From: Prochlorococcus marinus CUG1416
GTDB lineage: Bacteria; Cyanobacteriota; Cyanobacteriia; PCC-6307; Cyanobiaceae
Length of the DNA stretch: 64,000 nucleotides
Direction: 5' to 3'
Assembly (NCBI RefSeq): GCF_017695965.1
Contig: NZ_JAAORM010000005.1
Location: 62,001-126,000 of the forward strand
Positions within the stretch are counted from its first letter, which is position 1. Each line of letters opens with the position of its first letter. A program made the position numbers and the translations under genes. The notes under the pieces were generated by a model that worked only from the letters and a program-made list of their open reading frames with translations, did not search any database and had not been told where the DNA came from. Below are positions 19,459 to 53,420 of the stretch, one piece after another.

Positions 19459-20493
19459 ATGGAAATAAAAGGTCGGGAAATCAGTTCTAATAATTTTCCG
19501 TTAATAATTGCGGAAATTGGTATTAATCATGGGGGAAGTTTGGATGTAGCAAAAAATATGGTTTATGAAGCTGCAAAATCTGGAGCCGAATGTGTTAAGC
19601 ATCAAACTCATTTCGTGGAAGATGAAATGACAGAGGATGCAAAAGAAATTTTTCCTCCTAATGCTAATGCTTCAATTTGGGAAGTAATTGAAAAATGTGC
19701 TTTAAATAGGGATGAAGAATTCGCCTTAAAACAATATGCTGAGGAATTGGGACTTATTTATATCTCAACTCCTTTTTCAAGAGCTGCTGCTGATTTTCTA
19801 GAGGAAATTGATATTCCAGCTTTTAAGATAGGTTCAGGAGAGTGTAATAACATACCACTTGTAAGACATATTACCAAATTTAAAAAACCGATCATCATCT
19901 CAACTGGTATGCAATCTCTAACAAGTTTAGATAAAACTGTAAAAATTTTAAATCAGGGGAAAATTGATTACGCTTTATTAGAATGTACGAATTTATATCC
20001 ATCTCCTCCTGAATTTGTTTCTTTATTGGGAATATCAGAGTTAAGCAAGAAATTTCCTAATACTATTATTGGGTTTTCAGATCACTCAATCGGACCCCAT
20101 ATGGCTTTAGCCTCTATTCCTCTAGGCGCATCAATAATTGAAAGACATTTTACAGATACAAAATATAGAAAAGGTCCTGATATATCTTGTTCAATGGATC
20201 CTAGTGAGCTTAGTTTTTTAATTAAGAAGTCAAAGGAAATATACATAGCATCTAAAAATCAAAAATCAAGAACAACGCCAGAGGAGGATGTATATAAATT
20301 TGCTCGAAGTAGCTTAGTTGCTGATAGGGATTTAAAAGAAGGGCAAATCATAAAAGAAGAAGATATTTGGGCAAGAAGGCCCGGGAATGGTGAAATACCT
20401 GGTTACTTATTTGATGAGATACTCGGAAAGAAGTTAAAAAATAGTATTAAATTTAATCAACAGTTGAAATGGGAAAATTTTGTCAAAGATTAA
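19459..20493 (+). CDS. neuB: N-acetylneuraminate (sialic acid) synthase or close relative
   Basis: 344 aa. It condenses an N-acylated hexosamine (ManNAc or a 6-deoxy relative) with phosphoenolpyruvate to give a nine-carbon sialic-acid-type sugar. The TIM barrel carries EIGINHGGS (residues 19-27), STPFS (103-107), KIGSGE (123-128), SDHSIG (207-212) and KGPD (238-241). The C-terminal antifreeze-like SAF domain (about 283-344) has ARRPGNG, whose Arg enters the neighbour's active site in known NeuB. The next two genes are neuC and neuA. A legionaminic-acid-type product is possible. Confidence 0.93.
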   Translation: MEIKGREISSNNFPLIIAEIGINHGGSLDVAKNMVYEAAKSGAECVKHQTHFVEDEMTEDAKEIFPPNANASIWEVIEKCALNRDEEFALKQYAEELGLIYISTPFSRAAADFLEEIDIPAFKIGSGECNNIPLVRHITKFKKPIIISTGMQSLTSLDKTVKILNQGKIDYALLECTNLYPSPPEFVSLLGISELSKKFPNTIIGFSDHSIGPHMALASIPLGASIIERHFTDTKYRKGPDISCSMDPSELSFLIKKSKEIYIASKNQKSRTTPEEDVYKFARSSLVADRDLKEGQIIKEEDIWARRPGNGEIPGYLFDEILGKKLKNSIKFNQQLKWENFVKD

Positions 20494-20499
20494 TCAAAA

Positions 20500-21630
20500 A
20501 TGCGAAATTATAATAAGAATCTTCTATTTGTAACTGGAACAAGAGCAGACTTTGGGAAATTACAGCCTCTAGCTATTGAAGCTATAAAAGAAGGATTTAA
20601 GGTAACTTTTTTTATAACTGGTATGCATATGTTAGATAAATATGGACTCACAAAAATTGAAGTTTCCTTGAATAATGATTTTGAGACCGTTGAATTCCTT
20701 AACCAAAGAGATGGAGATCCTCAAGACGTTATTTTGTCAAAAACAATAATAGGCTTTTCTGATTATGTAAATGAATTAAAACCAGATATGGTAATAATTC
20801 ATGGTGACCGAATAGAAGCAATTGCGTGCTCAATTGTATGTGCGACTAATTATATATTGAGTATTCATATCGAAGGAGGAGAGGTTTCTGGAACTATTGA
20901 TGAAATATTTAGACACTGCAATACCAAATTATGCAATATTCATATGGTAAGTTCGGAAGACGCGAGAAAAAGAGTTATCCAGCTTGGAGAGAATAAAAAA
21001 AATATTTATGTAATTGGTTCTCCTGAATTAGATATTCACAGGGAGAACTCAGGGGTAAGTATCTCAGAAGTCAAGAAAAGATATGATATAACTTTTGATG
21101 AATATGGAATTTGCATATTTCATTCAGTTACTTCTGAACTAGATAAGATCGACACTCAAGCAGAAAAATTCTTTCAAGCACTATGTCTTAGCAAAAAAAA
21201 TTTCGTTGTCATACTTCCAAATAATGACCCTGGATCTGAGGTTATAAAAGAAAAGATTCAAAAACTTGATAAAAAATATTTTAAAGTTCTCCCTTCAATG
21301 CGATTTAACTATTTTTCTGAACTTATAAAAAATTGCAGTTTATTTATCGGCAATTCAAGTGCAGGAGTAAGAGAATTACCCTTTCTAGGGATTTGTTCAA
21401 TAAATATTGGTTCAAGACAAACCAATAGAGGTTTATCATCTTCAATAAAACAAATTGATAATTTTGATGAGTTAATTATCAAAGAAGCTATTCTTGAAAA
21501 CTGGAATAAAAGATTTGTAAAAGACTTAGCATATGGGAAAGGTAATGCTGCAAAAGAGTTTGTTAATCTTTTAAAAAAGGATGAGTTATGGGAAAAGAAT
21601 CTTCAAAAAAAATTCAAGGACTCCTTATGA
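20500..21630 (+). CDS. neuC: Hydrolysing UDP-N-acetylglucosamine 2-epimerase
   Basis: 376 aa. It converts UDP-GlcNAc (or a 6-deoxy diamino relative) to the free 2-epimer plus UDP, the substrate for NeuB. It begins FVTGTRADFGKLQPL, the NeuC form of the family signature, and continues IIHGDRIEA, IHIEGGEVSGTIDE and FIGNSSAGVRELPFLG. The GT-B epimerase fold and length agree with NeuC/LegG. Six bases after neuB; its stop overlaps the preferred neuA start. Confidence 0.92.
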   Translation: MRNYNKNLLFVTGTRADFGKLQPLAIEAIKEGFKVTFFITGMHMLDKYGLTKIEVSLNNDFETVEFLNQRDGDPQDVILSKTIIGFSDYVNELKPDMVIIHGDRIEAIACSIVCATNYILSIHIEGGEVSGTIDEIFRHCNTKLCNIHMVSSEDARKRVIQLGENKKNIYVIGSPELDIHRENSGVSISEVKKRYDITFDEYGICIFHSVTSELDKIDTQAEKFFQALCLSKKNFVVILPNNDPGSEVIKEKIQKLDKKYFKVLPSMRFNYFSELIKNCSLFIGNSSAGVRELPFLGICSINIGSRQTNRGLSSSIKQIDNFDELIIKEAILENWNKRFVKDLAYGKGNAAKEFVNLLKKDELWEKNLQKKFKDSL

Positions 21631-22289
21631 ATAAATTCATATCAATAATCCCCTTAAGAAAAGGTTCAAAAGGTATAAAAAATAAAAACACTAAATTACT
21701 TAATGGTATCCCGCTTTATTTATATACTATTAACCAATCATCAAGACTATTTGAAAAATGTATTGTAAATACAAATATTGAAGAGATTTTAAATAAAAAA
21801 TTTACATCTAACATTGATACATTTAAAAGAGAGGAGAAATATTCAGGAGATAAAACTTCTATGCAAGAAGTCCTAAATGATCTATTTTGTAAATTGAATT
21901 TAGTTGATTACAATGCTGTCTTATTGCAAGCAACATCTCCCTTAAGATCAGATCAAGATATTATCAATGCCATTAATTTATTTAAAACTAAAGAGTATTC
22001 ACTTGTAATAAGTGTAAAAGAAACTGAAAAAAATATTTTAAAATATGGAATTAAAAAAAATAATTTTTTTAAACCTTTACATAAAAAGTCTCTCTTTAAA
22101 AACAGACAAGAACTTCCAAAAGTTCTTTCTCCTAATGGTGCAATTTATGTTTTTTCAATAAAAGATTTTTTGAAATGTAAAGACTTTCCATCAAATAAAA
22201 TTGGTTTCTATGAAATGCCCTTAGAAAGATCAATAGATATAGATAATATAGAAGACTTTAGAAAAGTTTCGAAAATTATTAAAAAATAA
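21627..22289 (+). CDS. neuA: CMP-sialic-acid synthetase (acylneuraminate cytidylyltransferase)
   Basis: 220 aa from the ATG at 21627, which overlaps the neuC stop as ATGA. An upstream in-frame ATG at 21588 would overlap neuC by 43 bases and is less likely. The nucleotide-binding motif IIPLRKGSKGIKNKNTKLL starts the protein, followed by LLQATSPLRSDQDI, PNGAIYVF and SIDIDNIEDF, the standard CMP-sialate synthetase blocks. It activates the NeuB product with CTP. Translational coupling with neuC is likely. Confidence 0.92.
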   Translation: MNKFISIIPLRKGSKGIKNKNTKLLNGIPLYLYTINQSSRLFEKCIVNTNIEEILNKKFTSNIDTFKREEKYSGDKTSMQEVLNDLFCKLNLVDYNAVLLQATSPLRSDQDIINAINLFKTKEYSLVISVKETEKNILKYGIKKNNFFKPLHKKSLFKNRQELPKVLSPNGAIYVFSIKDFLKCKDFPSNKIGFYEMPLERSIDIDNIEDFRKVSKIIKK

Positions 22290-22290
22290 A

Positions 22291-23217
22291 TTAATCTGCT
22301 TTACCATAAGGGAATAAATTACAATCAAATCTTGGCAAATGTTGCCTCGAATTATCAATATCATCAGGACTAATTTCCCTCGGTTCAACATTAAAAGAAT
22401 ATGACACCTTCTCGAAATTTAAGATTTCAATTGTTTTTTTGTTAAAGGTATGAAAACCTCCATATGGGTGACAATAAGTTTTTGGTGCCACAATATTTAT
22501 ACTTTCTAAGAATTTAAGTGATTTTTCAATTTCAACTTTCTGTTCAGCAAAAGATAACTTACTCATTACTGGATGACTATAAGAATGTGATCCAATAATC
22601 ATTCCATTTTTTGACATATTTTTCAAATTGATTGGTCTTATATAAAAATCCTCTATATTAAATTTATAATTCAAATCGAATGATATTTGATCAATTAACA
22701 ATTCTCGATACTCATATGAAATATAATAATTTAGGATTTTTTTAAATTCTGTAATCATATATGAGTTTTCCTGATTCTTATAAGTGTTTTTGTTAAATTC
22801 TTCAATCTTGCTATCTGGGATCATATATTTTCTAAGATATTTATTTAAAGATAGAAACAAAACTTCTCCAGAAAAAGCACCCGTTAAAAGGTGGATTCTA
22901 TGCACATCTAAAAACTTGTTATCTATATGCGGCATTGCGGGAATATAGAAAATACCCCATAATCCCCTTCTCAGTAGTTCTTTAAAAACAATCTCATAAT
23001 GGCATTGAAGTCCATCATCAAAAGTTAAAATTACCTTACCTTTAGAATTTGGATATACACCATTATCTATAAAATCAATCCATTCTTTTTTTGATACAAA
23101 ACCAAATTTTTTATCAAAGAAATCTAACTGTAATTTGAAATTCTTAAAATCAAGAAATCTGAAATTTGGATGACTTGCATCATATTTTTTAATGTAGTGA
23201 TACATTATGGCCTTCAT
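22291..23217 (-). CDS. Polysaccharide deacetylase (NodB/CE4 family)
   Basis: 308 aa. It carries the CE4 motif LTFDDG (residues 64-69, metal-binding Asp pair) and the metal-binding HSYSHP (211-216) with Pro-rich TYCHPYGG further on. Such enzymes remove N- or O-acetyl groups from glycans. No clear signal peptide is seen, so it may act on a cytosolic sugar intermediate; that is an inference. It is the last gene of a three-gene minus-strand cassette with a formyltransferase and an aminotransferase, and ends one base from neuA. Confidence 0.87.
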   Translation of the reverse strand: MKAIMYHYIKKYDASHPNFRFLDFKNFKLQLDFFDKKFGFVSKKEWIDFIDNGVYPNSKGKVILTFDDGLQCHYEIVFKELLRRGLWGIFYIPAMPHIDNKFLDVHRIHLLTGAFSGEVLFLSLNKYLRKYMIPDSKIEEFNKNTYKNQENSYMITEFKKILNYYISYEYRELLIDQISFDLNYKFNIEDFYIRPINLKNMSKNGMIIGSHSYSHPVMSKLSFAEQKVEIEKSLKFLESINIVAPKTYCHPYGGFHTFNKKTIEILNFEKVSYSFNVEPREISPDDIDNSRQHLPRFDCNLFPYGKAD

Positions 23218-23254
23218 ACAATCTTTTAAAAACTAATTAAAAACTACAAATTCT

Positions 23255-24073
23255 TTAAGAAGAGATTTTTTCTAAAGCTTTATTCTTCACAATATATGGC
23301 AAGTTAATACTATCTATAGTATTGATATAATTTTCAACTAAATTATTAGAAAAATTTCTGTAAAGACTTTTACAAGCCTTTTCATCAAAATCTTTCTGAA
23401 GATAGAGTTTACCTTGAGAGATGGGTTGAACTTCTTGGCTTAAATCATTAAATTTATTAATTATTTCTTTGTATAAATTTGACATTTCTTTTATCAGTCT
23501 ATTACCTATTGAATGTGGTCCGTCTCCAAGAAATATACTTGCTCTTATTTGATGAATAATTTTACCTGTATCTATACCTTTATTTAAATACATAAAAGTA
23601 GCTCCTACCATATGTGGCTCATTATTTATTAATGCCCATATATTAGTACCACTTCCTCTATAGTAAGGTGATAAGCCTAAGTGAACATTTAAAAAACGAT
23701 TTTCAAATACATTTATAAGTTCCTCTTTTATTAAAGAAGAACCATAACAGACTATAAGGTCAGGATTAATTTTTATTATTTTTTCAATAATATATTTATC
23801 ATTAATCTCTCCTTTTTTAATCATTATTGGATTTGAAAAATCCTCAGTTAATCTAATTGAAGTATCAAAAAAATCTCTTTCTGAAGAATCTCTTGCTGCA
23901 GCATGTAGTTTCTCTATTTTAGAAACATTATTATTAATTGATCGATTTAATAAACTTTTTTCATTCCCCTCACAGAAGCTAGCAATAACTTTATAACGTT
24001 TATCTGATGCAATATTTTTCCTAAAAAATTCATGTCTTCTCTCATTTCCTGTCAATAAGATAATTTTTTTCAT
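23255..24073 (-). CDS. Sugar N-formyltransferase-like protein
   Basis: 272 aa. It has the formyltransferase catalytic triad: Asn129 and His131 in LNVHLGLSPYYRGSGTN, and Asp168 in KGIDTGKII, as in N10-formyltetrahydrofolate-dependent enzymes. In O-antigen clusters this fold formylates amino sugars. The upstream gene encodes a sugar aminotransferase, which fits an amino-sugar substrate such as a dTDP-3-amino-3,6-dideoxyhexose. A sialic-acid-like substrate is possible given the nearby neuBCA. It is not the Met-tRNA formyltransferase: the C-terminal domain is missing. Confidence 0.8.
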   Translation of the reverse strand: MKKIILLTGNERRHEFFRKNIASDKRYKVIASFCEGNEKSLLNRSINNNVSKIEKLHAAARDSSERDFFDTSIRLTEDFSNPIMIKKGEINDKYIIEKIIKINPDLIVCYGSSLIKEELINVFENRFLNVHLGLSPYYRGSGTNIWALINNEPHMVGATFMYLNKGIDTGKIIHQIRASIFLGDGPHSIGNRLIKEMSNLYKEIINKFNDLSQEVQPISQGKLYLQKDFDEKACKSLYRNFSNNLVENYINTIDSINLPYIVKNKALEKISS

Positions 24074-34125: not shown

Positions 34126-35025
34126 ATGAATTTAAGAAACATTTTTATAGAAATTAGATTATTAATCTTAAAAAGTTTTTCAAGTATTATTAAAAAAATT
34201 TTTAATAATAAAGTACCGAAATACATGGCAAAACTTCTTACAAAAGTTGAGCATAATATTTTCTTTATCAAAAGAAATAAAAATAAATCACATTTAGCAA
34301 ATATTGATGATTATAACTCTCATATCATTAATCAACTGGAGTTAAATGGATATTATGTTCTTAAAAATTACTGGTCAAAGGAAGCTTGTGAAAAAGTAAT
34401 AATAGAAATTAATAAATTCATAGAAAAATATCCTAAATATGTAAACTCTAATTGTTTATCCGACGAAAGATTTTTTGGAGCTGAAAACTGTTCTGATTTT
34501 ATAAATAATTACTTCAAAGACAGAAATATAAATGAAATAGCCAACAGATTTAATGGCCAAAAGACAATCCTCACATTTACATTGGCAGCTAAAATGAATT
34601 TCAAAATTGGGAATAAAGGTTCTGGAGAAGGTTGGCATCGAGATGGATTTCATAGACAATTTAAATCAATGCTTTATCTAACTGATGTAAATATGGATAA
34701 TGGTCCATTTGAGTTAATTTTGAATTCTCAAAAGATTAATTCACAATTAAGTGATATGAAGTCTGCTAATTTGAAATTTAACCAATATCGTCTAAGTGAT
34801 GAAGAGATAAAAAAAATATTACATAAAAATAAACACAGAAAAAAATCATTTTGTGCAGAGGCTGGATCATTAATTTTGTTTGATACTAGTACTTTGCACA
34901 GAGGAGCTCCAATAAAAAGAGGTTGCAGATATGCCTTAACGAATTATTTTTATAGAGAGGAGCAAGTTTCTAAAGAACTTTTTGAAAAATTTAATGTTTT
35001 TCCAAAAAAGAAAAAAATCTATTAA
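34126..35025 (+). CDS. Phytanoyl-CoA dioxygenase-family (PhyH) Fe(II)/2-oxoglutarate oxygenase
   Basis: 299 aa. The iron-binding facial triad is visible: His171 and Asp173 in GWHRDGFH, His258 in STLHRGAPI; Arg268 in GCRYALTNYF is placed to bind 2-oxoglutarate. This matches the PhyH double-stranded beta-helix family. The N-terminal 60 residues are basic and helical. The substrate is unknown; within a polysaccharide island it may hydroxylate a sugar, a lipid or a linker. It sits between the split SGNH gene and a putative glycosyltransferase. Confidence 0.82.
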   Translation: MNLRNIFIEIRLLILKSFSSIIKKIFNNKVPKYMAKLLTKVEHNIFFIKRNKNKSHLANIDDYNSHIINQLELNGYYVLKNYWSKEACEKVIIEINKFIEKYPKYVNSNCLSDERFFGAENCSDFINNYFKDRNINEIANRFNGQKTILTFTLAAKMNFKIGNKGSGEGWHRDGFHRQFKSMLYLTDVNMDNGPFELILNSQKINSQLSDMKSANLKFNQYRLSDEEIKKILHKNKHRKKSFCAEAGSLILFDTSTLHRGAPIKRGCRYALTNYFYREEQVSKELFEKFNVFPKKKKIY

Positions 35026-39202: not shown

Positions 39203-40576
39203 ATGGATTTCTTTTGCAACTACCCAAGTGAAGTTAACAAAACTAATTATCTTGAACTCAACGATAATACTGAAGTTTTTTATGGGTTACCTAAAAATGT
39301 AAAATTTTGTAAGTCATGTGTAATAAGCAATCAAAGACCTTCAACTAGTGTAGAGTTCAAAAATGATGGGAAACAACCCAAACAAGCTATAAATTTTAAT
39401 GATGATGGAATATGTGATGCTTGCAAGGTAAGAAAAAATATTGAAATTATTGATTGGGAAGCTAGAGAAAAAGAACTCAAACAAATATGTGATAAGTATC
39501 GAAGAAATGATGGAAGATATGACTGTTTAGTACCTGGCAGTGGAGGTAAAGACAGTTTCATGACCGCTCATTTATTAAAATATAAATACGGGATGAATCC
39601 TTTAACTTGTACATGGGCACCACACATATATACAGATTGGGGCTGGAAGAATCATCAAGCTTGGATTCATGCCGGATTTGATAATTTACTTTTTACGCCA
39701 AACGGCAAAGTCCATAGATTACTTACAAGACTTGCTATGGAAAAATTATTCTATCCATTCCAGCCTTTTATTTTAGGTCAAAAAAATATGCCTCCTAAAA
39801 TAGCAGCCAAATACGATATTGAATTAATTTTTTATGGAGAAAATCAAGCAGAATATGGCAATCCAAAGTCTGACAGCAAAAATCCTAAAATGGCCAATAA
39901 GTTTTTTTCAAAGGATGATAAAGATAAAATATACTTGGGAGGAACATCCTTAGATGAACTTAAAGAGATAGGATTAAAAAAAGTAGACTGGGAACCTTAT
40001 TTACCTATAGATAACTGCTATTTAGAGGAGAAAAAAATAGAATATTACTATCTTGGTTATTTTGAAAAGTGGCACCCTCAAGGAGCCTATTACTATTCTG
40101 TTAAAAATGGTGACTTTAAAAGTGCTCCTGAAAGAACAGCAGGAACTTTTAATACATACAACTCAATAGATGATAAGGTCGATGACTTTCATTACCATAC
40201 AACATTTATCAAATTTGGAATTGGTAGGGCAACTTATGATGCGGCTCAAGAAATCAGATCAGGAGATCTAATGCGTGAAGAAGGTATAGCGCTAGTTAAA
40301 AAATTTGACGGGGAATTTCCTGAAAGATGGGCATCGGAAGTTTTTAACTATTTAAGCCTACCAGAAAAAGAGTTTCCAGATATCTCGAAATTCTTTGAAA
40401 AACCAATTTTTGATAGAAAATATTATGATCTTTTAGCAGATAAATTTAGATCGCCTCACATATGGAAATGGGACAACAAGAATGGATGGTCTTTACGATA
40501 TAAAATATTCGAAATCGAAGAAAATAATAAACAAGAAGATTCCGCAGGATCATGGCAAGGTAACAAGGCTAGATAA
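39203..40576 (+). CDS. N-acetyl-sugar amidotransferase (WbuX/WbpG/PseA family)
   Basis: 457 aa. The PP-loop ATPase motif GSGGKDS is at residues 112-118. A four-cysteine cluster precedes it (Cys36, Cys39, Cys71, Cys74), probably a zinc site: FCKSCVISNQRP and ICDACK. Family members activate the N-acetyl group of a sugar with ATP; ammonia from a HisH/HisF-like pair turns it into an acetamidino group, as in Pseudomonas WbpG. The partner HisF-HisH fusion begins at the last base of this gene. The target sugar could be a sialic-acid-like sugar or a uronic acid derivative. Confidence 0.88.
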   Translation: MDFFCNYPSEVNKTNYLELNDNTEVFYGLPKNVKFCKSCVISNQRPSTSVEFKNDGKQPKQAINFNDDGICDACKVRKNIEIIDWEAREKELKQICDKYRRNDGRYDCLVPGSGGKDSFMTAHLLKYKYGMNPLTCTWAPHIYTDWGWKNHQAWIHAGFDNLLFTPNGKVHRLLTRLAMEKLFYPFQPFILGQKNMPPKIAAKYDIELIFYGENQAEYGNPKSDSKNPKMANKFFSKDDKDKIYLGGTSLDELKEIGLKKVDWEPYLPIDNCYLEEKKIEYYYLGYFEKWHPQGAYYYSVKNGDFKSAPERTAGTFNTYNSIDDKVDDFHYHTTFIKFGIGRATYDAAQEIRSGDLMREEGIALVKKFDGEFPERWASEVFNYLSLPEKEFPDISKFFEKPIFDRKYYDLLADKFRSPHIWKWDNKNGWSLRYKIFEIEENNKQEDSAGSWQGNKAR

Positions 40577-42021
40577 TGAGTGTTTGCAAAAGAGTTTTGG
40601 CAAGATTAGACATTAAAGGATCTAAGCTTATAAAAGGAGTACGTTTTGAGGGAGTAAGAGTAATTGGCAATGCATATGAAGTAGCTAAAAAATATGCAAA
40701 TTTGGGGGTTGATGAGATTTTTTATTCTGATGCGGTAGCAAGTCTTTATGGAAGAAATAGCCTATATGATTTACTTAAGCAAACCTGTAAAGATGTATTT
40801 GTGCCCATAACTGCTGGCGGAGCAATCAACAGCATTGAGGATGGACGAAAATTACTCGCTTCAGGAGCAGATAAGTTAGCAATTAATACAGGGGCTGTAA
40901 GAAACCCAAATTTGATAAATGATTTAGCAAATGAATTTGGGACCCAATGTGTTGTAGTTTCGATTCAAGCTAGAAAGTCTTACAATTCTAATTCTTGGGA
41001 ATTAATGATCGAGGGTGGCAGAGAAAAATGTGATAAAAATTTAATTAGCTGGATTGAAGAGGTCCAAGCCAGAGGTGCTGGAGAAATAATATTAACTTCT
41101 GTTGATAATGATGGTATCGGGGAAGGAACCGATCATGATTTGATAAGAAAAGTCCAACCATCAACAAAAATCCCATTAGTAATAGGTGGTGGCATAGGTT
41201 CTGAAGAAGAAATAACAAAAATATTTAATACTCATAAAAGTCTTTCAGGGATTTCAATAGGTTGGTCTTTCCATAATGATCATCTCAATATCAATAAGGT
41301 ACACAAAGCAATTCAAGAAAGTAAATGTGAAACAAGACTATTAGAAAATACTAGTAAAATATTAAATATAACTGAAGCTAAGGTAATAATTGTAGATTAC
41401 TCAATGGGGAATCTAGAAAGTTTGTCAAATGGATTAAAAAAGATAGGTATTGATGCAATTATCAGTTCTGAAAAAAGTAAAATAATGGATGCTGATCTTG
41501 TGTTTTTACCAGGAGTAGGTTCCTTTCATAAAGGGATGAGAAATTTGAATTCAAGAAAACTCATAAATCCTCTGCTAAGAAGAGCAAATGAAGGGAAAGC
41601 TATTATAGGTATTTGTCTAGGAATGCAGCTATTATTTCAGGAAGGTGAAGAATACCAACCATGCAAAGGACTAGGTATTATTAAAGGTAAAATCAAAAAA
41701 TTATCAAATAAATCTTATAATAATGAAAAATTAGTACTGCCTCATGTTGGCTGGAATAAACTTTATATAGATAAAAAATATGAAAATTCTAATTTAAGAT
41801 TATTTGATAAAAGTTATCAATATTTTGTTCATTCTTATGCTTATCAACCCGAGAAAACTGACTCAGAGAATACTCTTTTCAAATCTACCTATGGAGGTAA
41901 AGATTTTATTTCTGCAGTAAAATATAAAAGTTGTATTGGACTTCAATTTCACCCTGAAAGGAGTGGATATGAGGGGTTAAATCTTTTAAATGAACTAATC
42001 AAATCTTTAATAAGAATCTAG
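40576..42021 (+). CDS. HisF-HisH fusion: ammonia-supplying subunits of sugar amidotransferase
   Basis: 481 aa. Residues 1-255 match HisF (imidazole glycerol phosphate synthase cyclase); 267-481 match the glutaminase HisH, with Cys347 (GICLGM) and His459/Glu461 (LQFHPERS). The HisF part keeps the ammonia-gate residues Arg6, Glu47, Lys100 and Glu170 and Asp12 (Thermotoga numbering minus one for most), but the second catalytic Asp (Thermotoga Asp130) is Gln131 in VVVSIQARK. Cyclase activity is therefore doubtful, while ammonia channelling looks intact. The order HisF then HisH is opposite to eukaryotic HIS7. It overlaps the amidotransferase gene by one base, supporting a role in sugar amidination rather than histidine synthesis. 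Confidence 0.9.
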   Translation: MSVCKRVLARLDIKGSKLIKGVRFEGVRVIGNAYEVAKKYANLGVDEIFYSDAVASLYGRNSLYDLLKQTCKDVFVPITAGGAINSIEDGRKLLASGADKLAINTGAVRNPNLINDLANEFGTQCVVVSIQARKSYNSNSWELMIEGGREKCDKNLISWIEEVQARGAGEIILTSVDNDGIGEGTDHDLIRKVQPSTKIPLVIGGGIGSEEEITKIFNTHKSLSGISIGWSFHNDHLNINKVHKAIQESKCETRLLENTSKILNITEAKVIIVDYSMGNLESLSNGLKKIGIDAIISSEKSKIMDADLVFLPGVGSFHKGMRNLNSRKLINPLLRRANEGKAIIGICLGMQLLFQEGEEYQPCKGLGIIKGKIKKLSNKSYNNEKLVLPHVGWNKLYIDKKYENSNLRLFDKSYQYFVHSYAYQPEKTDSENTLFKSTYGGKDFISAVKYKSCIGLQFHPERSGYEGLNLLNELIKSLIRI

Positions 42022-42981
42022 ATGAGATATTTTTGTACTCTTTTTGATAAAAACTATCTAATCAAAGGTTTGAGCATGATTAATAGCTTATCAAAGAATT
42101 GTATTAAATATTTTATATATGTACTTTGCTTAGATAAAGAGACAAAAGATATTTTAGATAAGATCAATTTAAATAATGTTAAAACCATATTATTGAATGA
42201 AATAGAAGATAGAGATTTATTAGAAGCTAAGAGTAAAAGAACAAATACAGAATATTGTTGGACTCTTGCATCCTCATTTACTTGGTATGTTTTAAATAGA
42301 TTCAAACAAATTGATTTAATTACATATCTTGATGCCGATCTTTTATTTTATTCGGATGTAGAGGTTATTTTTAAAGAAATAAAAAAATCGTCAATTGCGA
42401 TTATAGAACATAGATTCTCATCACCCTTCGAGTACTTAGAAGTTAATGGGAGATTTTGCGTTGAATGGAATAGTTTTCGAAGAGACAAAGAGGGTATTAG
42501 ATGCTTGGATAATTGGAGAAAACAATGTTTAGCTTGGTGTTATTACAGACTAGAAAATGGGAAAATGGGCGATCAGAAATACCTTGATGAGTGGCCAAGT
42601 AAATTCCGTAATTGTCATATCATAAAAGATGATGGAGCTGGAATAGCGCCATGGAATTATGCAAAATACGAAATAAAGAAGCAAAATAATAAAATAAAAA
42701 TTAATGAAAGTAATCTAATTTTTTATCATTTCCACCAATTTAAGATTCTGGAAAACCAAAGGTTCTTTAGACTTGGAGATATGTATTCATCAAATAAGAA
42801 AGAACCTGATTTGATATATGAAATTTATGAAAAAGAAATTTTAAAATCTCTGAATATCATAAGAAAAATTGATAAAAAATTTAATCACGGAATATTTACA
42901 AGAAAAAATTATTTTTTTAAGGATAAAATCAAGAAATTGATCCCAAATACTATTAAGAAAATTATAAGGAGAATTATATGA
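42022..42981 (+). CDS. GT8-like nucleotide-sugar glycosyltransferase
   Basis: 319 aa. RYFCTLFDKNYLIKGLSMINSL begins a GT-A fold, and LITYLDADLLFYSD carries the metal-binding DxD. GDQKYLDEWP and a later His-rich YHFHQFK stretch follow, consistent with retaining GT8-type transferases. The C-terminal tail is basic. The start immediately follows the HisF-HisH stop, and the stop overlaps the next gene by four bases, so all are one operon. Confidence 0.8.
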   Translation: MRYFCTLFDKNYLIKGLSMINSLSKNCIKYFIYVLCLDKETKDILDKINLNNVKTILLNEIEDRDLLEAKSKRTNTEYCWTLASSFTWYVLNRFKQIDLITYLDADLLFYSDVEVIFKEIKKSSIAIIEHRFSSPFEYLEVNGRFCVEWNSFRRDKEGIRCLDNWRKQCLAWCYYRLENGKMGDQKYLDEWPSKFRNCHIIKDDGAGIAPWNYAKYEIKKQNNKIKINESNLIFYHFHQFKILENQRFFRLGDMYSSNKKEPDLIYEIYEKEILKSLNIIRKIDKKFNHGIFTRKNYFFKDKIKKLIPNTIKKIIRRII

Positions 42982-45222: not shown

Positions 45223-46968
45223 ATGAATCATAATCTAGTTGATATTAATAATGTTCTTGTAATTGGATGCGGCGGGGCCGGATTAAGAGCTGCTATAGAG
45301 GCAAAATTGAATGGACTGCAGGTTTCTATTTTGGGGAAAAGAAGCAAAAAAGATTCTCATACCGTTCTTGCAGCAGGAGGGATAAATGCAGCTTTTGGTA
45401 ATATTGATCCAAATGATAATTGGAGATATCATTTTGCAGATACATATTTAGAGGGTTATGAGTTAGGTGATCCAGAGCTTATAGAAAGAATGTGTATAGA
45501 GTCTCCATATTATGTTGAAGAAATTGATAAGTGGGGAGCAAATTTTAAAAAATTAGATAACAATAAATTTGACCAAAGGTATTTTGGAGCACATAAATAT
45601 AGAAGAACTTGCTACTCAGGTGACTATACAGGTCAATCAATTTTGAATGCCTTGTTGCGAAAAAGTCTTTCTCTTAAAATCCCCATCCATGACTCTCAAT
45701 ATGTTGCAGAATTATTGGTAAAAGATAATAAATGTTTTGGAGCCATGTCTTTTAATATTATTACAGGTGAAAGAACAGCACACTTTGCAGATGCTGTTAT
45801 TCTCTGCACTGGAGGACATACTAGGATTTGGAAGAATAGCACCTCAAGAGAATATGAAAATACAGGTGATGGTTTTCATCTAGGTCTTAAAGCTGGTTGT
45901 GAATTATCAGATATGGAAATGGTCCAGTTCCATCCAACTGGCACGGTCCTTCCTACAGCAACAAGAGGAACTCTAGTTACTGAAGCAGTAAGAGGTGAGG
46001 GAGGCTTACTATTAAATTCTAAAGGAGAGAGATTTATGGCTAAATATGATTCAAAACGATTAGAACTTTCCACTAGAGATAGAGTCGCAATGGCTAACTA
46101 TACTGAAATAATAGAAGGCAGGGGAACAGAAAATGGAGGAGTATTTCTAGATATATCTCATAAAAGTAAAGAATTTATTCTCGAAAAAATACCAAATATT
46201 TATAGACAATTCATTGAAAACTCCTTAATTGATATTTCCAAGGAGCCTATGGAGGTATCGCCAACAGCCCATTATTCAATGGGGGGTCTAAAAGTTAATG
46301 CATTAGATCATTCTACAAGAATAGAAGGCTTGTTCTCTGCTGGAGAAGCAGCAAGTGGATTGCATGGAGCTAATAGACTCGGCGGCAATTCTTTAGCAGA
46401 AATCTTAATATTTGGTGCTCATGCTGGTAGAGCTGCTGCAAAGTTGTCAAAAGCCTTGTCTTCTCAATTAAGATCAAGGAAGTGTATTTCTGAAACTCAC
46501 GATTATTTAAATCACTCAATTTCAAAAGGTAATGAAAACGTTTACTTATTAAAATCAGAGTTAAGAGATTTAATGTGGGATTATTGTGGAGTAATTAGAA
46601 ATGAAAAAAGTTTAATTAAAGGCATAAACAGAATAAATGATCTTGAAAGCTTTTTGCCAAATACAGATATAAGATTAGAATTTAATAATCAGAATGATTT
46701 GATTAACAAATTAGATTTACATTCATCTCTTATCACGGCCAAAGTAACATTGTTATCAGCACTAGAAAGAAAAGAAAGTAGAGGTGCACACCAAAGAAGT
46801 GATTTTCAGAAAACCGAAGATGCTTGCAAATTTAATATTAATATCCTTATGAAGGGGGATAAATTTATTATTAAAAGGAGCAATCATAAGAGTGTGAATC
46901 AAGAATTAATTAATCATATAGAAAGATCAGAAAGAGAAGAAGAAATTGCAAAAAAATTACTTGAATAA
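45223..46968 (+). CDS. sdhA: Succinate dehydrogenase/fumarate reductase flavoprotein subunit
   Basis: 581 aa, full length. It has the FAD-binding VIGCGGAGLRAAIEA, and DSHTVLAAGG with the His that binds FAD covalently. Catalytic residues are visible in QFHPTGT, TEAVRGEGG, SPTAHYSMGGL and ANRLGGNSLAE. Covalent-FAD His favours SdhA/FrdA over L-aspartate oxidase, which lacks it. It interconverts succinate and fumarate. The iron-sulfur partner (SdhB) is not adjacent, which also holds in some other cyanobacteria. It is the only central-metabolism enzyme within the polysaccharide island. Confidence 0.9.
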   Translation: MNHNLVDINNVLVIGCGGAGLRAAIEAKLNGLQVSILGKRSKKDSHTVLAAGGINAAFGNIDPNDNWRYHFADTYLEGYELGDPELIERMCIESPYYVEEIDKWGANFKKLDNNKFDQRYFGAHKYRRTCYSGDYTGQSILNALLRKSLSLKIPIHDSQYVAELLVKDNKCFGAMSFNIITGERTAHFADAVILCTGGHTRIWKNSTSREYENTGDGFHLGLKAGCELSDMEMVQFHPTGTVLPTATRGTLVTEAVRGEGGLLLNSKGERFMAKYDSKRLELSTRDRVAMANYTEIIEGRGTENGGVFLDISHKSKEFILEKIPNIYRQFIENSLIDISKEPMEVSPTAHYSMGGLKVNALDHSTRIEGLFSAGEAASGLHGANRLGGNSLAEILIFGAHAGRAAAKLSKALSSQLRSRKCISETHDYLNHSISKGNENVYLLKSELRDLMWDYCGVIRNEKSLIKGINRINDLESFLPNTDIRLEFNNQNDLINKLDLHSSLITAKVTLLSALERKESRGAHQRSDFQKTEDACKFNINILMKGDKFIIKRSNHKSVNQELINHIERSEREEEIAKKLLE

Positions 46969-52070: not shown

Positions 52071-53420
52071 TTATAACCTTATTGGATTCAATTCTCTTGG
52101 GATAATTCCTTTAATGTCAACGAATTTACCCTTTTCTACAATCAATTGTTTGAAAAATTCTGTTTTTAGTAATTTAAATTGTTCATGAGCAACTGCAGCA
52201 ATTATTGCCTCAAATTTTTGATTAGTAGGAATTTTATTATAAAAATCTATTTTTTTTGGTAAATTCTTATCTGTTTTTTCAATAAAGGGATCCACCACCA
52301 CGATAGAAATTCCGTATGACTTTATTTTTTGGATTAATTTAATAACCCCAGAGTTTCTCATGTCAGGACAATTTTCCTTAAAAGTCAATCCTAATATTAG
52401 AAACGTAGACCTACTTAATGTAAATCCTTCACTAGTCATGACAGAAACTAATTCTTCAATAATCCAGTCTCCCATATAATTATTTATTCTTCTTCCTGCT
52501 AATACCACCCCTGGAGAGTAACCAGCTAATGTTGCTCTATGAGTTAGATAATATGGATCTACACCTATACAATGGCCCCCAACCAATCCAGGTCTAAAAT
52601 CTAAAAAATTCCATTTTGTATTCGCTGCTTCTAGGACATCAAGTGTATCGATATTAAGTTTTCTACAAATTATCGCCAACTCATTTACTAATGCAATATT
52701 TAAATCTCTTTGAGTATTTTCTATAACTTTTGCTGTTTCCGCAATTTTGATGCTTTTTGCTTTATGAGTTCCAGCCTCTATAAAAGAGGCATAAAAACTA
52801 TCGACCCAATTCGCAGTTATTTCATCCATCCCACTTGTTATTTTTACAATATCTCCTATTGATCTTCCTCTATCACCAGGATTAATCCTTTCGGGACTAT
52901 AACCACAAAGAAAATCTTTATTTACTTTACCAACCATCTCTGCCTCAATTATTGGTATACAAATCTCTTGGGTTAAACCTGGATAAACTGTACTTTCAAA
53001 GAGTACTATGGGTATATTTTTGATTAATTCATTATCTCGCCTTATTTTTAAAGTTTTACCAATTAACTTACTTGCTATTTCTATTGGCTTTAAATTTGGA
53101 TTATTAAATGAATCAATTGGAGTAGGGACCGTAATTATATAAACATCAGAATTTTCTATCTCGCTTTCTAAATTAGTAAAAGAAATATTATTCCCATTAA
53201 TCAAATCATTATCTTTGACTTCATTAGTTCTATCAAATCCTTTTTTTAATTCTGAAATTCTCTCCTGATTGATATCAAAACCAACTATTTTTCTTCTTAA
53301 TTTTTGTCCAGTTTTATGGCAATTTAAAGTTTTATCAATTTGAACTGCTAAAGGTAAACCTACATAACCAAGACCAACTATTGTAACTTTACAATTATTT
53401 AATTTTGGAAGTAAATGCAT
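52071..53420 (-). CDS. UDP-N-acetylhexosamine 6-dehydrogenase (TviB/WbpO-like)
   Basis: 449 aa. NAD-binding GLGYVGLPLAVQ, then FESTVYPGLTQE, SPERINPGD and the catalytic-Cys GGHCIGVDPYYL. The SPERINPGD and GHCIGVDPYYLT blocks mark the TviB/WbpO/VipA branch, which oxidises UDP-GlcNAc or UDP-GalNAc to the uronic acid. It is separate from the UDP-glucose dehydrogenase at 49441. It lies two bases after the 4-epimerase gene on the same strand. Confidence 0.88.
   Translation of the reverse strand: MHLLPKLNNCKVTIVGLGYVGLPLAVQIDKTLNCHKTGQKLRRKIVGFDINQERISELKKGFDRTNEVKDNDLINGNNISFTNLESEIENSDVYIITVPTPIDSFNNPNLKPIEIASKLIGKTLKIRRDNELIKNIPIVLFESTVYPGLTQEICIPIIEAEMVGKVNKDFLCGYSPERINPGDRGRSIGDIVKITSGMDEITANWVDSFYASFIEAGTHKAKSIKIAETAKVIENTQRDLNIALVNELAIICRKLNIDTLDVLEAANTKWNFLDFRPGLVGGHCIGVDPYYLTHRATLAGYSPGVVLAGRRINNYMGDWIIEELVSVMTSEGFTLSRSTFLILGLTFKENCPDMRNSGVIKLIQKIKSYGISIVVVDPFIEKTDKNLPKKIDFYNKIPTNQKFEAIIAAVAHEQFKLLKTEFFKQLIVEKGKFVDIKGIIPRELNPIRL

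Follow-up and report, generated by a model that had tools for sequence, protein, structure and literature searches.

Why does a marine picocyanobacterium with its own hisF and hisH also encode a single protein in which a HisF-like barrel is joined to a HisH-like glutaminase, directly beside an N-acetyl-sugar amidotransferase gene? The question is raised by a 64,000-nucleotide stretch of Prochlorococcus marinus CUG1416 (RefSeq assembly GCF_017695965.1, contig NZ_JAAORM010000005.1, positions 62,001 to 126,000), referred to below as the window. We consider it likely that this HisF-HisH fusion is a one-chain supplier of glutamine-derived ammonia for the neighboring WbuX-type enzyme, which would make an acetamidino-nonulosonic acid (a sialic-acid-like sugar of the cell surface), and that its HisF half acts as a conduit or docking module without cyclase activity. 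The fusion gene, its parts and its partner are as follows.

39203..40576, + strand: WbuX-type N-acetyl-sugar amidotransferase (TIGR03573, 350.5 bits; cut-off 203.2)
40576..42021, + strand: HisF-HisH fusion gene, one open frame of 481 amino acids
40582..41334, + strand: HisF-like (beta/alpha)8 barrel, residues 3-253 (NCBIfam TIGR00735 and TIGR03572; AlphaFold model versus HisF-LUCA)
40966..40968, + strand: codon CAA for Gln131, equivalent to Asp130, the general base of the cyclase (alignment with solved HisF)
41335..41382, + strand: linker, approximately residues 254-269; both its sequence and its length vary among relatives
41383..42003, + strand: HisH-like class I glutaminase, residues 270-476 (TIGR01855, above the HisH cut-off)
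41614..41616, + strand: codon TGT for the nucleophile Cys347 of the glutaminase triad (alignment with Thermotoga HisH)
41950..41958, + strand: His459-Pro-Glu461, the remainder of the triad (alignment with Thermotoga HisH)

An earlier note on this DNA, made from the letters alone, had described a single 481-residue frame with HisF first and HisH second, the reverse of HIS7, and the NCBIfam domain boundaries agree. The HisH half scores 193 bits against TIGR01855, above the curated cut-off of 105.4. The HisF half falls below the curated cut-offs of three families: 232 bits for TIGR00735 (HisF; 294.55), 233.5 bits for TIGR03572 (WbuZ; 299.7) and 167 bits for NF038364 (AglZ/HisF2; 310). Clear split relatives likewise remain under the WbuZ and AglZ/HisF2 cut-offs, and Pfam reports His_biosynth plus GATase for the fusion. 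An AlphaFold model built on an alignment of 17 fusions (mean predicted local distance difference test score, pLDDT, 89.3; predicted TM-score, pTM, 0.91) gave a HisF half with the barrel fold, matching 4evz (HisF-LUCA) with Z 35.7 and a root-mean-square deviation (rmsd) of 1.7 over 253 residues, and chain A of 1gpw with Z 33.7 and rmsd 2.0 over 251 residues. As the matches listed in structural searches with the whole fusion were to the HisF half only, the HisH half was checked by sequence instead. The fusion ATG shares one base with the stop codon of the upstream WbuX gene (TAATG, 40574-40578). No in-frame ATG, GTG or TTG was found in the linker of the window copy, so HisH could not start separately there at any of the common start codons. 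Linkers span 10-36 residues among the fusions and differ between lineages. Joining the two halves would plausibly secure a 1:1 complex.

Alignment with Thermotoga HisF and HisF-LUCA equates fusion Asp12 and Gln131 with Thermotoga Asp11 and Asp130, the catalytic general acid and general base of the HisF cyclase (PMC11350729). The window copy thus keeps Asp11 and has Gln in place of Asp130. Fusion Arg6, Glu47, Lys100 and Glu170 correspond to Thermotoga Arg5, Glu46, Lys99 and Glu167, which we take to be the ammonia gate, and all four are invariant in the fusions. In the HisH half, Cys347, His459 and Glu461 align at the triad of solved Thermotoga HisH, leaving the triad complete, and a PGVG oxyanion strand lies at residues 312-315. 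The residue assignments of the earlier note (Asp12, Gln131, the gate and Cys347/His459/Glu461) are therefore all correct, as is its statement that gate and glutaminase were retained.

Positions 9/11/130 (Thermotoga numbering) are Cys/Asp/Asp in canonical HisF (9/9), and Arg/Asp/Gln (16) or Lys/Glu/Gln (1) in the 17 fusions; an Asp at the catalytic position was looked for by alignment, and Gln130 was found in 17/17. Split WbuX-HisF-HisH relatives carry Arg/Asp/Glu (13), Arg/Asp/Gln (2), Lys/Glu/Glu (1), Lys/Asp/Ser (1) or Arg/Asp/Asp (1), so that 17/18 unfused HisF rows lack Asp130 (14 Glu, 2 Gln, 1 Ser, 1 Asp), a count in which one Glu row is duplicated since loci L093 and L097 share one protein accession. 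Cys9 is replaced by Arg in nearly all fusions and split relatives. Because the unfused relatives mostly lack Asp130, the loss belongs to the wider group and is not a product of fusion, contrary to the framing of the earlier note. Gln130 is fixed in the fusions, though it is also present in unfused relatives. Another type linked to WbuX, in which HisH usually precedes HisF, has Asp130 mostly present and Leu at Asp11, and in four of its rows both catalytic Asp are gone (Thr at 11, Pro at 130). These patterns suggest that cyclase chemistry may have been abandoned more than once. The four HisF2 rows without either Asp (L080, L082, L084 and L085) are WbuX-linked and come from four genomes of one cyanobacterial genus.

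The fusion is found in 17 distinct sequences of the Prochlorococcus/Synechococcus family, the other 16 being 32-57% identical to the window copy, a recurrence far beyond chance. A full-length fusion is present in 9/200 genomes of the genus, including the window genome, and a survey of 300 genomes of the family added seven more, three of them single-contig; a GTDB contig scan found fusions in named Prochlorococcus single-cell genomes (L040 among them). Across 386 genomes of the phylum, full-length matches are confined to this family, the other four being matches to HisF alone. Outside the family the halves are separate genes, often overlapping, in other Cyanobacteria, a gammaproteobacterium, Pelagibacteraceae, an Actinomycetota and an Omnitrophota metagenome-assembled genome. 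Single-protein scans of genome contigs and viral contigs returned no relatives; the alignment-based scan yielded 17 genome loci and, on viral contigs, none. Plasmid records gave no match spanning most of the query, and the plasmid relatives that were opened (alphaproteobacteria and Subdoligranulum) have split HisF2/HisH genes, annotated examples being named 'N-acetyl sugar amidotransferase', 'wbuZ' and 'hisH'. Matches in phage records came in separate pieces only, with no fused frame identified. On each of two trees, one for HisF (support 96/99) and one for HisH (93/91), a single label change accounts for the 17 fusions, and the fusion has one origin. In the HisF tree one unfused sequence, L054, sits on a very long branch inside the fusion clade, which may reflect a long-branch artefact or a split after the fusion.

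Some of these records merit separate mention. Several phage-labelled records (H15-H27; OR848171, OR846787, OR844989, MT836342) carry hisF-like and hisH-like genes and look like host contamination. Plasmids of Pseudohalocynthiibacter (L093) and Roseovarius (L097) share identical protein accessions over a polysaccharide segment in which a NeuD-type acetyltransferase gene lies between HisF2 and HisH, which suggests recent transfer.

Residues 10-441 of the window WbuX align to PDB 8WEX with 630 bits (E 2.4e-188), and its model superposes on that structure with Z 41.8 and rmsd 2.1, at 63% identity over 372 structurally aligned residues. The PP-loop SGGXDS (S113-S118) and four cysteines (C36, C39, C71 and C74) are invariant in the window's relatives, and these motifs, with the TIGR03573 score, place the protein in the WbuX family. 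8WEX is the Legionella pneumophila N-acetyl sugar amidotransferase, LpNASAT; its paper describes a family that joins ammonia to the N-acetyl group of a sugar, a PP-loop fold pointing to conversion of ATP to AMP and pyrophosphate, and a zinc tetracysteine site (PMC10607449). A ptmG homologue of Legionella, ORF 28, which may be the 8WEX gene, has been assigned the conversion of CMP-Leg5Ac7Ac to CMP-Leg5Am7Ac (PMC3766260).

WbuX adjoins every fusion locus with sufficient flank, mostly upstream but downstream in L011, and a position beside a WbuX-family amidotransferase is that of WbuZ and AglZ/HisF2. Two cyanobacterial loci encode HisF-WbuX fusions in a single frame (L081:1429-3471, minus strand, 681 residues; L088:1423-3489, minus strand, 689 residues), each a HisF2-like barrel plus WbuX with a separate HisH gene alongside; their barrels retain Asp130 and have Leu at Asp11. 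Together, the HisF-HisH and HisF-WbuX fusions tie the three proteins into a chain HisH-HisF-WbuX, which fits a putative ammonia route from glutaminase through barrel to WbuX. The dedicated link to sugar amidination proposed by the earlier note is strengthened by the adjacent WbuX, by these HisF-WbuX fusions and by the genome's own canonical hisF and hisH.

By analogy with the known families, the C-terminal HisH half would hydrolyze glutamine and the ammonia would pass through the N-terminal HisF barrel via the retained gate, to be handed over at the barrel's far face to the WbuX encoded just upstream. With ATP, WbuX would activate a nonulosonic acid of legionaminic type, in nucleotide-activated form, at its N-acetyl group and swap the N-acetyl oxygen for NH, giving an acetamidino group. 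Because Asp130 is Gln and the pocket is remodeled, the HisF half would no longer cyclize imidazole glycerol phosphate and would serve as a conduit and as a docking or sensing module. Histidine synthesis would be left to the genome's other, canonical hisF and hisH.

Several observations weigh against this proposal. Asp11, Lys19, Phe23, Asn103 and Asp176 are still present in the HisF half, which may have a changed catalytic or ligand-binding role. Docking of the two halves in the model was judged from overall scores (pTM 0.91). The nonulosonic acid genes of the window lie 20 kb from the fusion and are not adjacent to it. Genome-level co-occurrence is modest, NeuB being found in 8/9 fusion carriers versus 84/191 other genomes (Fisher p = 0.009, relatedness uncorrected; 200 genomes).

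The first of these points bears on the earlier note's suggestion of a pump without cyclase activity: the loss of Asp130 is borne out, but a mere pump is too simple. Arg9, Asp11, Lys19, Phe23, Asn103, Gln130, Thr171 and Asp176 are invariant in 16/16 fusions scored. Twenty pocket positions, picked from general knowledge of HisF, have a mean entropy of 0.33 versus 1.15 over all positions, and 0/20,000 random position sets were as low, a figure that describes more than it gives a probability given the shared ancestry of the fusion rows. Gly replaces Ser201 of the phosphate site in 15/16. Lys19 and Phe23 (loop 1) and Asp176, which touch ProFAR (phosphoribosylformimino-AICAR-phosphate) or one another in the activated Thermotoga complex (PMC8115485), are retained in the fusions; most split relatives instead carry Leu or Met at 23 and Glu at 176. 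Altered yet strongly conserved, the pocket looks re-purposed instead of decaying. Since a plain pipe would not need Lys19, Phe23 and Asp176, a ligand or docked partner is expected there, and the altered pocket probably retains ligand binding or serves to dock WbuX.

In histidine synthesis, binding of ProFAR or of PrFAR switches on the glutaminase. We regard it as a possible, though less than even, prospect that the remodeled pocket likewise takes up a ligand, whether the nucleotide sugar, a PrFAR-like effector or an intermediate, and activates the glutaminase only with loaded WbuX. The low pocket entropy and the retained ProFAR-contact residues argue for such a switch, but kinship of the sequences inflates conservation, and WbuX docking or folding constraints could give the same pattern. 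The switch would refine the conduit proposal, and both can hold together. With similar tentativeness we put forward a two-part conjecture: the Arg9/Gln130 pocket might recognize the sugar nucleotide or WbuX and so license glutamine hydrolysis, making the ex-cyclase barrel a regulated ammonia adaptor, and lineages might have arrived there by breaking different Asp residues, Asp130 in the WbuX-HisF-HisH type and Asp11 in the mostly HisH-first type.

The identity of the acceptor was considered from the following genes of the window, which also holds NeuD-like and FdtA genes.

19459..20493, + strand: NeuB-family nonulosonic acid synthase, which may produce the acceptor sugar (TIGR03569, 347.5 bits, under the cut-off; PF03102)
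20500..21630, + strand: NeuC/LegG-type hydrolysing 2-epimerase (TIGR03568, 353 bits, over the cut-off)
21588..22289, + strand: NeuA/PseF-type cytidylyltransferase
52071-53420: UDP-HexNAc dehydrogenase-like gene

In relatives' loci with sufficient flank, NeuB-type genes, usually together with NeuC- and NeuA-type genes, lie near the cassette. Six other genomes with the fusion and two with split genes have NeuB at a distance of 0.1-4.3 kb. In genome G044 the NeuB match is on another contig than the cassette; the sole fusion carrier without NeuB, G130, is 71% complete, and its cassette lies at the end of a contig. G073 and G168 have DegT-aminotransferase and NeuD-like genes near the cassette, a feature of legionaminic-type pathways. 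On the strength of nonulosonic acid genes near the cassette in relatives, we favor a nonulosonic acid as the putative acceptor. It is unlikely, though a real alternative, that the acceptor is another N-acetyl sugar of the polysaccharide, for example an N-acetyl-hexosamine uronic acid as for Pseudomonas WbpG: the dehydrogenase-like, NeuD-like and FdtA genes and the 20-kb distance speak for it, but the proximity of NeuB in eight other genomes, with NeuC-type genes nearby in most, and the close match of the window WbuX to the Legionella enzyme speak against it. Formyltransferase and deacetylase genes near or inside the same island are common to the window, G086 and G044, and a formamidino or N-formyl variant of the sugar is conceivable, if speculative. 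In the window (22291-24073), as in L020 and L021, genes for a polysaccharide deacetylase and a formyltransferase-fold protein lie with the nonulosonic acid genes or with the fusion.

A second, working but drifted imidazole glycerol phosphate synthase is very improbable. Asp11 and much of the pocket are present, as are the Pfam His_biosynth and GATase matches, but the general base is Gln in all 17 fusions, the HisF half scores under the HisF cut-off, and the fusion is coupled to WbuX wherever flanks permit a check. Furthermore, the window genome (1.67 Mb, 5 contigs) carries a separate canonical hisF (L002; Cys9/Asp11/Asp130) and hisH (L003). We reject a working histidine enzyme on these grounds. 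Least credible of all is an assembly or sequencing error, a possibility named by the earlier note: the two genes overlap or abut in split relatives L012, L013 and L053, so that a single indel could join them, but it is ruled out by recurrence of the joined frame in 17 distinct sequences of different genomes, three single-contig, with lineage-specific linkers and one fusion clade for each half (L054 lying inside that of HisF).

The surrounding island contains further surface-polysaccharide genes.

42022..42981, + strand: GT8-like glycosyltransferase, starting directly after the fusion stop codon
42978..44318, + strand: polyprenyl-phosphate glycosylphosphotransferase-like (TIGR03025, 286.6 bits, just under the cut-off of 295.55)

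The first is probably on the same transcript as the fusion, and the second belongs to the same surface-polysaccharide block. Also amid the polysaccharide genes is a fumarate reductase/L-aspartate-oxidase-like flavoprotein (45223-46968), for which the NCBIfam matches shown are all below cut-off, and the same island includes a PhyH-type 2-oxoglutarate dioxygenase (34126-35025).

The ammonia source of WbuX/WbpG-type enzymes is poorly defined, and the family's structure and function are called little known in the 8WEX paper (PMC10607449). A natural HisF-HisH protein beside a WbuX with a full-length solved homologue, together with HisF-WbuX fusions, offers ready constructs for study of the complex and its ammonia path. 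The natural series of residues (Asp, Glu or Gln at 130; Asp or Leu/Thr at 11) illustrates a possible path by which a textbook cyclase was put to new use. If our proposal holds, some abundant ocean picocyanobacteria should display a nonulosonic acid with an amidine group.

Among known systems, the nearest is the WbpG/HisH2/HisF2 trio of acetamidino-sugar synthesis. WbuX/WbpG-linked HisF2 (WbuZ, AglZ/HisF2) and HisH2 show the same trio in the same order (WbuX, HisF-like, HisH-like) in surface-polysaccharide loci; wbuZ and hisH are the names of such neighbors in a Rhizobium plasmid record, and the trio recurs in a Sphingomonas exopolysaccharide cluster (PMC11340318). Unlike these, the protein described here is one chain, has Gln130 where split relatives mostly have Glu, and scores under both the WbuZ and AglZ/HisF2 cut-offs. 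The bifunctional imidazole glycerol phosphate synthase HIS7/HisHF has the same two domains in one polypeptide, but with HisH N-terminal and HisF C-terminal (PMC1963479), and makes histidine in eukaryotes and a few bacteria and archaea (PMC1963479, PMC11237513). Legionella LpNASAT, a full-length match to the window WbuX that shares its PP-loop SGGKDS and C36, C39, C71 and C74, is the counterpart of the partner and not of the fusion; the available portions of its paper discuss no ammonia source and mention no fused HisF-HisH (PMC10607449). In the HisF-WbuX proteins of L081 and L088, too, a HisF2-like barrel is fused to another member of its pathway, but this is WbuX rather than HisH, and both catalytic positions differ from those of the HisF-HisH fusion. 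A literature search, with most subscription journals outside it, found no paper on a HisF-first fusion or on a fused HisF-HisH in Prochlorococcus. Overall, the joining of HisH and HisF was already known in the opposite order, and the HisF-first fusion within an amidination trio is a new variant of the WbpG/HisH2/HisF2 system.

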